Positions 47,642 to 52,604 of a stretch of DNA of 64,000 nt are shown in pieces. Every line of letters starts with the position of its first letter. The stretch's first letter is position 1. Made by a program: the position numbers and the translations under genes. Under the pieces are notes generated by a model. The model saw nothing but the letters and a program-made list of their open reading frames with translations, made no database searches and was not told the DNA's origin. The DNA lies in NCBI RefSeq assembly GCF_000337095.1, contig NZ_AOIV01000011.1, forward strand, positions 170,764 to 234,763, given 5' to 3'. The DNA comes from Halogeometricum pallidum JCM 14848 (GTDB taxonomy: Archaea > Halobacteriota > Halobacteria > Halobacteriales > Haloferacaceae).

Positions 47642-48102
47642 TTATTTTTTGGCGATATCGGCCCAGACCAGTCGGTGATCCGAGGCCGTTTGGATCTCAT
47701 CCGGGAGACCGCGTTTCCTCGCGTTGGGGTTCGGCCAGACTACCGACGACGAGCGTAACGAGAAGTCCGGTGAGGGAACACCCAATCAACCTGTGATCCA
47801 TCGCCGAAAACGGCCGTCGCTTCGGGGTTCCCGAGCCGTGCTCCACCGGGGCTCGTGGGCAGTCTCCGCGTGTTGAAATCCTCGTTTTCGATGAAGTACG
47901 TCGTCGCCGGATCGAGTGGACGATCGGTCTTCGGTCCAGCGTTCATATCGCCCATCAGGACATACGAGGCGTCCTCGTCCAGCCCTCCGTGGACTCCGCT
48001 GTCATCGTAGATATACCCGGCATCGTCGACGTAATCCGCGAAGAAGCGAATCTCATCGTGGTTCCAGCGGCCGTTGAAGTTGTTCGGGCCATCGAGCCAC
48101 CA
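47642..48102 (-). pseudogene. Truncated and frameshifted endonuclease/exonuclease/phosphatase-family gene
   Basis: The minus strand gives the C-terminal half of the family: WWLDGPNNFNGRWNHDEIRF, YVLMGDMNAGPKTDRPLDPA and VDWVFP. One base is then missing in a C-run (plus-strand GGG at 47773-47775), after which the true frame resumes as PSPDFSLRSSSVVWPNPNAR and ends ASDHRLVWADIAKK. The active-site motifs GDMNAGP and SDHR are present, but the N-terminal half is absent because a stop precedes WWLD. Confidence 0.75.
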
Positions 48103-48198
48103 TCAACGGTCTCGTTGACTACAAAACCGTGACACTCAGGGAGGCGTTCATCGGAGTCTCACGTCTTTGAGCGCGAGAAGGTTGCCACCGAGCGCGCG

Positions 48199-48498
48199 TT
48201 TCCGCTGTATGGACGAACTGCTTCGGACCCGGTCGTTGGTCAAGAGGCTATGCGCGGGTTTCCGCTGTATAGCGTGAGCGCTAGCTAGTGCAAGACGCAG
48301 TATGGATCAATCATATTAGATCGTCCTTTAACTTGAGGGGTTGTTTAAACACTATAATAATAAATCTTTCTGAGCTAGTACTAGCTTCGAGATAGGTTGT
48401 CGAGTTCGTCTTTACGACGTTTACAGCGGAAACACGCGCTGACTCTCGACCACTACAGCGGAAACGTGCGCTCGCATCTGCGTGCATTTCCGCTGTAT
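48199..48498. repeat. Origin-box repeat family A, upstream cluster (5 copies)
   Basis: TTTCCGCTGTAT occurs on the plus strand at 48199-48210, 48259-48270 and 48487-48498. One-mismatch inverted copies are at 48421-48432 and 48453-48464. Flanks are also shared (GCGCR before the core), giving a ~17-20 bp element. Copies on opposite strands enclose an AT-rich stretch, the usual layout of Orc1/Cdc6 binding boxes around an unwinding element. Confidence 0.8.
48300..48375. other. AT-rich candidate unwinding element
   Basis: A markedly AT-rich stretch (for example CACTATAATAATAAATC) lies between the plus- and minus-strand family A repeats, just upstream of the first orc1/cdc6 gene. This is where the duplex would open in an archaeal origin. 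Confidence 0.6.
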
Positions 48499-48593
48499 AA
48501 CCCCCTGAGATGGCCTAATTGCGTTGTTTATAGGCTTTTTCATCGGAAACTCGCTTGCGAACCTTTATGCTGGGCCGGAATCACGCCGGGTGT

Positions 48594-49823
48594 ATGAGTG
48601 GGGGCACGAACTACTTCGACTCGGTCGGATCTATCTTCTCAAACAAAGATCTCCTCCGAATCGAGACAGTTCCAGAATCCGATGACCGAATCATCGGTCG
48701 AGGCGACCAGCTATCTGAATTGGCGAGCGAACTTGGATCGGCTATCGAGGGTCAAAAACCGAACAACGTGTTCATCTTCGGCAAACCCGGCGTCGGGAAG
48801 TCGATGTGCGCGAAGTTCCTCGGGCGACAACTCGTTGAGCGGGGCGCTGCCAACGGCGTCAGCATCGGAGTTGCTTACGTAGACTGTATGCAGAACTCTT
48901 CGGAGACGCAGGTCGTCGTCCGGGCGGGCGAACTCGTCAACGACCCCGATGAGACTGACATCACCTTCCCTTCGGGAGGGGTTTCACGGTCACGCCTCTA
49001 CGACCGACTCTGGAACGCCTTTGACCAGTTCTACGACGTGGGCGTCATCATCCTCGACGAAATCGACAAGCTAGATTCCCCGAACGAGACACTGGGAACG
49101 CTCTCACGGGCCGGAGAATCCGAGAAACTCTCTGATTGTCACCTTGGAGTCGTCGGCATCAGCAACAAGGCTCGCTTCGAGAATCGACTGACCTCAGAGG
49201 TGCGGTCGAGCCTCACCCAGAACGAACTGGTGTTCCCACCTTACAACATCAACGAACTGTTCAACATACTCAAGGCCCGCCGCGATGCGTTCAATCCTGA
49301 CGTACTCCCCAGTGACGCACGGGCACTTGACGATATTTTCGCGACCGCCGCCAAGTTCGCCGCACAGGAGTACGGTGACGCGCGTCAGGCTATCGATATT
49401 CTCCGGAAGACTGGTGAGATAGCCGAACGTGAAGGTGCGGACGTACTGACCACCTCCCACGTCGAACGCGCCCTCGACAAAGCAGAGGAGGACAAACTCG
49501 TCAAGATGATGCAGACGCAACCGGTGCAGTCCCAATACGTGATGCAGTCGGTCGCACTCACTACCGACGATGCCGACCCGGGCGAGGACGTGAAGTCACA
49601 CGACGTTTACTCCAAGTACGAGCAAATCACTCAGTACGAGGATACGAATACGCTTTCGTGGCGACGTGTGCGCGACTTGCTCGACGAACTCGAAGACCTC
49701 GACGTGCTCGACCAGCGGCGCAAGGGTGCTGGGAAGGGGAAAGGGACGTACCGCTCCATCTATCTCGCGGATTCCCCGGAAACCGTTCTCCGTGCCTGTG
49801 AATCTGTCACCGACGGTGGGTGA
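48594..49823 (+). CDS. Orc1/Cdc6 replication initiator (first copy)
   Basis: 409 residues from ATG 48594, with TTTATG about 27 nt upstream as TATA box. AAA+ core: Walker A GKPGVGKS (63-70), Walker B VIILDEIDKL, sensor-1 region LGVVGISNKARFENRL and arginine-containing sensor-2 GDARQAIDILRKTGEIAERE. A C-terminal winged helix follows (VYSKYEQITQYEDTNTLSWR; RVRDLLDELEDLDVLDQRRK). It binds origin boxes and loads MCM. Family A repeats lie on both sides of the gene, so these are its likely binding sites. Confidence 0.95.
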   Translation: MSGGTNYFDSVGSIFSNKDLLRIETVPESDDRIIGRGDQLSELASELGSAIEGQKPNNVFIFGKPGVGKSMCAKFLGRQLVERGAANGVSIGVAYVDCMQNSSETQVVVRAGELVNDPDETDITFPSGGVSRSRLYDRLWNAFDQFYDVGVIILDEIDKLDSPNETLGTLSRAGESEKLSDCHLGVVGISNKARFENRLTSEVRSSLTQNELVFPPYNINELFNILKARRDAFNPDVLPSDARALDDIFATAAKFAAQEYGDARQAIDILRKTGEIAEREGADVLTTSHVERALDKAEEDKLVKMMQTQPVQSQYVMQSVALTTDDADPGEDVKSHDVYSKYEQITQYEDTNTLSWRRVRDLLDELEDLDVLDQRRKGAGKGKGTYRSIYLADSPETVLRACESVTDGG

Positions 49824-49835
49824 GCCAAGCGCACA

Positions 49836-49847
49836 TTTCCGCTGTAT
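49836..49847 (+). repeat. Origin-box repeat family A, downstream copy
   Basis: TTTCCGCTGTAT, flanked by AGCGCACA as in the upstream copies, lies 12 nt after the first initiator's stop codon. The gene is therefore bracketed by family A boxes. Confidence 0.75.
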
Positions 49848-50014
49848 AGCCCGCCCGAGAACGCTCGTGTGACTCAGATGCTGTCGACGGTATCGTAGAC
49901 GACGCGATACCCCGTCTCCATTCGTTCTTTCGTATTGAGGAGGATCTCTCGCGCGCGAACGTATCTCGACTTTGATTTGGTCTCGGTCTTCAGTCGGGGC
50001 TGAAAGACGGCGCT

Positions 50015-50826
50015 TTTACTGGAAATGGTGGTGTGGTGGCTGGCGATACTGGTCTCGGCAGTTCGTCGTCCCGAGTGAAAGTTGTTCTACTCACGATAGG
50101 AAATTAACAACGGGTGAACGGAATCTCGCTTCACGCCAGGTAACCGATCGGGAATGTCTGACGGATGTCAGACCCCACTATTTCCACTAATACGGTTACA
50201 TGACGAGAACCGGCGGCTACACCCATCCACTCTCCCCCCACCATTTCCAGTAAAACTAGCGACGAAGGTCTCCCGAACTCTCTCGTTATTTTCTTTCACT
50301 AGAACCAACCCCAACCGCAACCGTTCTCTAGCTCTCCTGCGGACTAGCTCGAACGCTATTGATATAAACTTTCCCCAAATTTAGAGTTCTCGCTCACGAG
50401 GTGGGTCTCTTTCGTGGTGCTTTACTGGAAATAGTGGGGAGGGGGTGTCCCACCGTTCTCAGTAACCGACCCCCTCCGCCGTCTGTCGGTTCGTATTCAA
50501 GCCGAGTATACTGGAAACGATGGTGTCTATAGTGTATATAAAGAACCGTTTACTGGAAATACTGGAACCCCATGGTTCGTTCTTTCGGAACCAACCACCT
50601 GGAGTCACCGCGAATTACTGGAAACGATGGGGTGGTTCGATCATTCGTGATCTGATGGCTTTACTGGAAATAGTGGGGTGAAGTTGTTCATCGAGAGTTG
50701 GATTATGGGATGTCTTTGCGATACCTCTCTCGACGCTCACCGATTAGACTGGAAGCGGTGGGGTCGATATCAATTAGTGGAAATCACACCCTACAGTGGT
50801 TATACTGGAAATAGCGGAAACGGTGG
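50015..50826. repeat. Origin-box repeat family B (about 11 copies)
   Basis: Consensus TTTACTGGAAATAGTGGGG. Plus-strand copies: 50015, 50421, 50507, 50549, 50614, 50660, 50745, 50773 (partial) and 50800, with a partial second unit at 50813. Minus-strand copies: 50173-50190 and 50236-50254. The ACTGGAAA core followed by a G-string matches the general form of haloarchaeal origin recognition boxes. Spacing is irregular (about 40-170 nt), unlike CRISPR. All lie upstream of the second orc1/cdc6 gene. Confidence 0.85.
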
Positions 50827-50868
50827 TCGAAACAGTTATCATTCCAGCCTGAATCAGTCGAGCACAAT

Positions 50869-52107
50869 ATGACTCCCCGATTCCAGCCCGACGATACGCT
50901 GTACAAACGTCGGAATACGCTCAAAGTCGAGTATGTACCAGACGACATCGTCGGGCGGGACAACGAAATCGAGGAGTACGAAGCGGCCCTACAGCCGATC
51001 ATCAACGGCGAATACCCCGACAACATCTTCATCTACGGGAAAACCGGCGTCGGAAAGACCGCCGTGACGAACTTCCTGCTGAACGAACTTCTAGAATCGG
51101 CGGAACATTTCGAGGTCGACCTCTCTGTCATCTCGCTCAACTGCGACGGTCTCAGCACGAGCTACCAGGCCGCGATTAGCCTGGTGAACAATCTTCGAGA
51201 ACCCGAACACCACATCGCCGAAACCGGCCATCCCCAATCCAAAGTCTATCGTCTGCTCTGGGACGAACTCAACAAGCTCTCTGGGACCGTGATCATCGTT
51301 CTCGACGAGATCGACCATATTACGGACGACACGTTCCTCTACCAGATCTCTCGTGCAGACAACAACGGATACATCGACAACATTCAACTCGGCCTCATCG
51401 GAATCAGCAACGATTCGACGTTCCGAGAACAACTCGACGCGAAGGTTCAATCGTCTCTGTGTGAGACCGAGATTTCGTTCCCGCCGTACGGCACGGAAGA
51501 GCTTCAAAAAGTCCTCGAACAGCGGGCAGAGATCGCGTTTCACCAGAGGGCGCTCGAAGCGGGCGTGATCCCGCTGTGTGCGGCCCTCGGTCGCCAGGAT
51601 GGTGGTGACGCCCGACGAGCGATTACGCTCCTTCGGAAGGCTGGCGATCTCGCACGTACGGAAAACGCGAATTCGGTTACGACCGACCACGTCGAACGTG
51701 CCCAGGAGAAACTCGAGGCGCAGCAGAGCATGGACATCATGCGCGACCTCACCGAACACGAGCAACTCACACTCTACGCGCTGACCACGCTCGCTGCAGA
51801 GAATGCGACACCGGCTCGGTCACGAATCGTCTACCAGCGCTACAAAGAACTCTGCGAGTTTCAAGGTCGGGATCCGCGTACCGCTCGGCGGATGCGCAGT
51901 TTCCTCTCTGATTTCGAGATTCTCAATCTAACGCTCTCGTACATGGAGCACCGTGGTCAGGACGGTGGAACGTACCGTGAACACGAACTCAACCGCGATA
52001 TCGCGACGGTCGTCGACGCGCTACAGACGATCATCAGCGAATTCGGTGCCCACCAAAGCATCATCGAGTACCTTCCCGACTCCGGCGAGGAGTTCACTGC
52101 GATGTAG
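50869..52107 (+). CDS. Orc1/Cdc6 replication initiator (second copy)
   Basis: 412 residues. Walker A GKTGVGKT (57-64), Walker B VIIVLDEIDHI, sensor-1 LGLIGISNDSTFREQL, sensor-2 GDARRAITLLRKAGDLART and a C-terminal winged helix (SRIVYQRYKELCEFQGRDPR; RRMRSFLSDFEILNLTLSYM). Sequence differs widely from the first copy, and its upstream boxes belong to a different family, so the two initiators probably use separate sites. A second origin, or one acquired by integration of a replicon, is implied. Confidence 0.95.
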   Translation: MTPRFQPDDTLYKRRNTLKVEYVPDDIVGRDNEIEEYEAALQPIINGEYPDNIFIYGKTGVGKTAVTNFLLNELLESAEHFEVDLSVISLNCDGLSTSYQAAISLVNNLREPEHHIAETGHPQSKVYRLLWDELNKLSGTVIIVLDEIDHITDDTFLYQISRADNNGYIDNIQLGLIGISNDSTFREQLDAKVQSSLCETEISFPPYGTEELQKVLEQRAEIAFHQRALEAGVIPLCAALGRQDGGDARRAITLLRKAGDLARTENANSVTTDHVERAQEKLEAQQSMDIMRDLTEHEQLTLYALTTLAAENATPARSRIVYQRYKELCEFQGRDPRTARRMRSFLSDFEILNLTLSYMEHRGQDGGTYREHELNRDIATVVDALQTIISEFGAHQSIIEYLPDSGEEFTAM

Positions 52108-52604
52108 CGATCCGGACTGAGGGATGGGCCGTTGTTGTCGGTGAGGGAGTCTCTGTCAGAACAGACATCCGGAGTCGTGCAACAACCACGACTGAAATGG
52201 TGTCCTGTGAACGCTTGGATTGAAACGTGGCATATCCTGCCGTGTCATTGTAAAGATATCAACCCGGCATACACAACCACTCTACGACAAACAAGATTAA
52301 ACGAGCCCTCGAAGCGCCTTTGGAGGCATATTTTGGTTCAAATAGAAGCGAACTAGCTTCGAAACACCATTACAACGTTCAAACGAGCGTAATCCACTAT
52401 TCAACCACGAGATATCTCTCCTCTTGATATCTATCTGTAGGCTTTGACCGGGTACATAGAACCGGTTCTACGGACGCATCTACGCTCTCGTCGGAGTGCT
52501 TATTAGCTCCGATGAAAACCGTGACGTATGCCTCGTAGTGACGACGCGGTTCTCCGACTGTCAGATAGGTCCAACCACAGCGTATCGCTCGGAGGGACTG
52601 TACG
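52108..52604. other. Intergenic region of about 0.5 kb
   Basis: No gene seen. AT-richer sequence lies at 52250-52400. GGAGGGACTG about 10 nt before the ATG at 52605 resembles a ribosome binding site for glucose dehydrogenase. I found no origin-type repeats in it. Confidence 0.5.

Follow-up and report, generated by a model that had tools for sequence, protein, structure and literature searches.

The tandem pair of orc1/cdc6 genes in the window, a 64-kb stretch of DNA whose numbering is used below unless a contig or locus is named, most probably represents two complete origins of separate descent, each with its own boxes, which came to stand next to each other stepwise and of which one would be dominant and the other a backup or dormant. 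The first-pass annotation had proposed two such genes in tandem, and both are indeed present: orcA (48594..49823, plus strand, ATG start) codes for an Orc1/Cdc6 initiator of 409 aa whose nearest relatives are 50–51% identical, and orcB (50869..52107, plus strand) codes for one of 412 aa which recurs with 91–97% identity in many genera. Both proteins score above the TIGR02928 (orc1/cdc6) cut-off of 181 bits (344 bits for OrcA and 462 bits for OrcB) and contain AAA+, lid, and winged-helix domains, placing them among the archaeal Orc1/Cdc6 proteins, and both genes are intact, with Walker and sensor motifs present. As had been claimed, the two proteins are widely diverged, sharing 32% identity over 403 columns. 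In a tree of 108 proteins, a quick one with long branches in which our claim rests on the starred clades and not on the deep order, OrcA falls into a supported clade of 18 rows and OrcB into a different supported clade of 20 rows. The nearest kin of OrcA come from three Halogranum-group genomes, with about 50% identity and identical A boxes, and close relatives of OrcB occur on plasmids.

The 4.38-Mb genome, assembled into 45 contigs, contains twelve orc1/cdc6 genes, three of which are located on the 280-kb contig C11: orcA, orcB, and a third at C11:235926–237032. The tandem pair occupies 219–222 kb of this contig, whose ends do not overlap, so that it is not closed. Because searches detected neither a tRNA on C11 nor an Rfam family within the 64-kb window, and because close OrcB relatives are carried by plasmids of about 99–572 kb, C11 is most likely an extrachromosomal replicon or part of one. 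GC skew along C11 gave no informative signal. The two modules are arranged head to tail, with 168 nt from the last A box to the first B box, and because the junction sequence between them is single-copy, an assembly error at the joint is unlikely. The region 3' of orcB holds a gene for glucose dehydrogenase, a transporter cluster of sugar type, and also the third orc, which lies 1.2 kb beyond the window end inside the sugar-gene cluster (L097:5908–7053). This third gene is 41% identical to OrcA and keeps its syntenic position in congeners, in Haloprofundus pMHR1-3, and in Halegenticoccus; searches of its surroundings revealed no box family. To the left of the pair, positions 47652–48098 hold a gene remnant broken across frames, which by eye resembles a gene of the endonuclease/exonuclease/phosphatase family and has a 69% similar copy at C11:247272–247740.

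Because a de novo motif search returned uninformative codon repeats at some loci (e.g., L095 and L097), we located the boxes by pattern and matrix searches instead. Family A had been described as six copies on both strands around the first initiator, and this was borne out, with five boxes preceding orcA and one following it. The motif TTTCCGCTGTA occurs at 48199, 48259, 48487, and 49836 and on the minus strand at 48421 and 48453. At up to one mismatch, 0.11 copies of the A 12-mer are expected per window, and six were reached in none of 100 shuffles; the A 11-mer is absent elsewhere in the 4.38 Mb (control pattern, 0). The consensus of the six copies, TTACAGCGGAAACrCGCrCT, is restricted to this locus within the genome. 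Boxes 1 (48192..48209, TACAGCGGAAACGCGCGC) and 2 (48252..48269), both on the minus strand, are followed by an AT-rich stretch (48300..48379), which is the third least stable 80-nt stretch in the 64-kb window and, lying between inverted boxes, a candidate unwinding element. Then come boxes 3 (48422..48439) and 4 (48454..48471) on the plus strand, box 5 (48480..48497) on the minus strand, orcA, and finally box 6 (49829..49846, minus strand) 3' of the gene.

Upstream of orcB, where about eleven copies of family B had been reported, matrix searches recovered 11 good copies of the consensus TTTACTGGAAAYRGTGGGG and one degenerate copy. The family includes two exact 19-mers and six copies at up to three mismatches, versus 0 in 100 shuffles, and TACTGGAAAYRGTGG has nine matches in the genome at up to one mismatch, all at this locus. 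The genome-wide motif search that had been recommended showed both families to be unique to the locus, with no family B elsewhere. The outermost box 1 (50015..50032, plus strand) is followed by boxes 2 (50174..50191) and 3 (50237..50254) on the minus strand, a box-free gap (50255..50420), and eight plus-strand boxes ahead of orcB, namely boxes 4 (50421..50438), 5 (50507..50524), 6 (50549..50566), 7 (50614..50631), 8 (50660..50677), 9 (50745..50762), 10 (50801..50818), and 11 (50810..50827). Boxes 1–4, 6, and 8 were detected by pattern and matrix and boxes 5, 7, 9, and 10 by the matrix. The degenerate box (TACTGAGAACGGTGG, 50450..50464, minus strand) is weak, with a matrix score of 4.0, and box 11, which overlaps box 10, combines an A-like AGCGGAAAC core with a B-like tail, scoring 20.0 with the B matrix and -2.2 with the A matrix. 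The gap between the inverted B boxes is moderately AT-rich (54% over 50281–50400) and may be the unwinding region, an uncertain assignment for which 50505–50584, the 80-nt stretch of lowest stability in module B, is an alternative candidate. Both modules show the repeated inverted boxes next to an orc gene by which a haloarchaeal origin is recognized, and the AT-rich stretch between inverted boxes is clear in module A and weaker in module B.

The first-pass annotation also held that the two repeat families share no core, which proved incorrect: aligned on the same strand, the A (TACAGCGGAAACrCGCGC) and B (TTTACTGGAAAYRGTGGGG) boxes both contain GGAAA and differ on either side of it. The A and B matrices each score the boxes of the opposite family below zero. 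When matrices were built from relatives alone, the best matches on the 280 kb were exactly the six A boxes for the Halogranum-group relatives and exactly the eleven B boxes for the OrcB relatives. Judged from the letters, the two box sets are orthogonal. Among the loci checked, exact A boxes are confined to OrcA-type loci (six at the studied locus, four at L025, and seven each at L026 and L027), and B boxes occur at OrcB-type genes in 4–10 copies each; two loci with an Orc 52–57% identical to OrcB have 1–2 B boxes each, and the OrcB clade is associated with TACTGGAAAYRGTGG boxes. Because box type tracks initiator clade in the relatives, these data argue for separate specificities of OrcA and OrcB. 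Of the earlier suggestion of one origin under two initiators with separate specificity, it is the specificity that gains support, the units themselves being two and separately descended. In haloarchaea, an origin is specified by the Cdc6 encoded next to it (PMC3936714). Each Orc1/Cdc6 would bind its own box family exclusively, open the AT-rich DNA flanked by the inverted boxes, and recruit the replicative helicase.

The B boxes end with the G-string GTGGGG, which is missing from the A boxes, both those of the studied locus and those of the Halogranum group. OrcA and its three kin form a group with CGCGC or CGCAC in place of the G-string, and the sister group keeps GTGGGG. The other 14 members of OrcA's 18-row clade have TTACAGCGGCAACGTGGGGTG-like boxes, whose full sequence was read at four members; in the sister clade (L028–L040), these TTACAGCGGCAACGTGGGGTG boxes carry GGCAA for GGAAA, with the G-string kept. 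Haloarchaeal ORBs were recognized by their G-string by Wu et al. (PMC3528665), and the G-string is essential at oriC1 of H. hispanica (PMC3936714). We file module A as a putative variant, not as a standard G-string origin. More tentatively, it may represent a class of haloarchaeal origins whose initiator clade has lost the G-string and reads TTACAGCGGAAACrCGCrCT, and haloarchaeal plasmids might build compound origins by stacking cassettes of about 2 kb with orthogonal specificity, with a spare letting the older one decay, as in the congener G041; we regard this as possible and would not yet rely on it. Searches requiring a G-string would miss the class of module A, and the A boxes offer a test of whether the G-string is generally required in halophiles.

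Module B (50002..52109, plus strand, left limit 50002/50014) comprises the box array and orcB and is delimited by cross-species DNA homology. At all 20 loci from other species, homology to the window never extends to the left of 50002 nor to the right of 52114; it starts with the box array or within it and stops at the orcB stop codon, and the flanking genes vary. The module is thus a discrete cassette of about 2 kb, old and widely shared on megaplasmids. Because the dN/dS of orcB is about 0.02 at dS values of 0.5–1.6 across species, the gene is an old unit under strong purifying selection. A recent horizontal transfer, hinted at by 94–97% protein identity across genera, is tempered by the high synonymous divergence, since constraint would explain much of the protein identity. 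A second orc within about 4 kb of an OrcB-type module was found at five of the 21 loci examined, namely the studied locus and those of Salinigranum marinum, Halegenticoccus tardaugens, Haladaptatus pallidirubidus, and Halogranum amylolyticum, so close pairing recurs. The earlier view of the arrangement as less usual needs qualification in this respect, with a different partner each time, as seen from its different tree position in each of the five loci. In Salinigranum marinum, the partner orc lies upstream in the same orientation and has its own box type in ten copies. Close orc pairs were also seen in Haladaptatus pallidirubidus (G171; L157, L158, and L160) at C7:592938/595254, C4:35354-/37801+, and C6:1690/6931.

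The congener G041 has the gene order seen 3' of orcB at 89% identity, with module B at the syntenic place and orcA absent. This module B is a relic (L180:14118–15205, on G041:C5) in which eight B boxes are kept and deletions have left two fragments of orcB, and no OrcB of at least 90% identity was found elsewhere in the G041 genome. The congeners G040 and G038 have the sugar cluster and the third orc with neither module, and congeners without modules have other left flanks. Because B stands alone in G041 and neither module is present in G040 and G038, the two independent cassettes appear to have been juxtaposed secondarily and stepwise, which, within limits, makes the locus an unusually clear case of the known shuffling of origins. 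In the simplest order, module B would have been gained upstream of the sugar-gene cluster, module A would later have been placed beside it here, and module B would have decayed in G041; alternatively, module A may have been lost in G041. Two further observations concern G041: contig C5 contains a tandem orc pair (178339–180666) with 163 bases between the genes and one in-frame stop in the second, and a few kb to the left of the relic module, a frame (L180:9796–12072) resembles by eye a phage tail-sheath protein. Gain and loss of haloarchaeal origins have mostly been deduced from scattered origins. The stages would be legible here within one genus, from no module via module B with a broken initiator and retained boxes to an intact module B with a new module A.

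The pair may therefore be read as a snapshot of origin turnover, with one dominant origin and one backup or dormant origin as the likely working state, rather than as a single origin requiring both initiators. At such a compound origin, both initiators would cooperate and firing would need, or be tuned by, both arrays; the closeness and common orientation of the modules and the A-like core of the overlapping B box 11 would fit, and oriC2 of H. hispanica is regulated by a neighboring ORB-rich region (PMC3936714). However, the modules occur singly in relatives (B at most of the 20 loci, A in three genomes), the partner near B varies by species, and the A matrix gives box 11 a negative score; we consider a compound origin very unlikely. 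Internal duplication of one origin with subsequent divergence, despite the like order (boxes, then orc) and orientation of both units, is ruled out by the 108-protein tree, because each protein is nearer to genes of other genera and sits in a different supported clade, and is practically impossible.

The annotation had also considered a fusion of two origins by integration of a replicon. In such a fusion, two whole replicons would each have brought an origin with its neighboring genes. The joint does fall between a left flank with relatives on other congener contigs (G041:C6) and a right flank common to other plasmids, but homology to module B ends at the module's own edges amid varied flanks, pointing to a moving unit the size of a cassette, and a scan of nearby genes and a repeat search revealed no integrase, transposase, or flanking repeat. 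Likewise, no target duplication or mobile element marking the A–B joint, no empty A site, and no integrated replicon was seen. Secondary joining is what stands of this proposal, and integration of a replicon is highly improbable. It is also unlikely that one or both modules are relics and that C11 replicates from another origin: module B of G041 is such a relic, the counterpart in wild-type H. mediterranei is dormant (PMC4595724), and C11 has a third orc, but the intact motifs of both initiators, the strong constraint on orcB across species, and the lack of a box family at the third orc speak against it. With two separately descended origins as the preferred reading, box sets orthogonal in sequence and 2 kb apart would provide a natural experiment on the choice between neighboring origins and on dormancy.

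Among the closest known systems is that of Haloferax mediterranei, where oriP1-cdc6L and oriP2-cdc6M both replicate autonomously (Yang et al. 2015; PMC4595724). In the wild type, oriP2-cdc6M is active and oriP1-cdc6L dormant, the latter being essential without oriP2 (PMC4595724). Plasmid pHM500 (pHME505) has two orc genes. The one at 334757 shares 97–98% identity with genes carried by other Haloferax plasmids and fits cdc6M, for which 98% identity to H. volcanii Orc3 has been reported. The second gene is the orthologue of orcB, with 95% protein identity and nine B boxes at L113. By elimination, this orthologue would be cdc6L, and because of this assignment module B is very probably of the oriP1-cdc6L type and hence of a type with demonstrated origin function. 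OrcB matches the type in having an initiator identity of at least 80% (Wu 2012) together with identical boxes. On pHM500, oriP2-cdc6M is more than 230 kb away and has another orc type, whereas OrcA is 2 kb away at the studied locus. On sequence grounds, the locus seems to combine two origins of an established kind, and what is new is a class of A boxes breaking the G-string rule of halophiles. It resembles other haloarchaeal cdc6-adjacent origins (PMC3528665, PMC3936714) in the orc1/cdc6 gene beside inverted boxes flanking an AT-rich stretch, in the tracking of initiator family by box type, and in that a genome has several origins, many of them on megaplasmids, but differs in that two full modules abut in tandem and that the A boxes are without the hallmark G-string. 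Hlac_3512 and HQ2959A (PMC3528665) also have two distinct box sets together, and their TAACAGCGGAAACAGTGGGG box has an A-like core, but they have one orc gene instead of two and this box retains the G-string. Finally, gain and loss of origins as replicator-initiator units is shared with the system described in 2014 (PMC4441112), with the difference that the unit is here a sharp-edged cassette of about 2 kb on a plasmid-type contig and not a chromosome-captured element.
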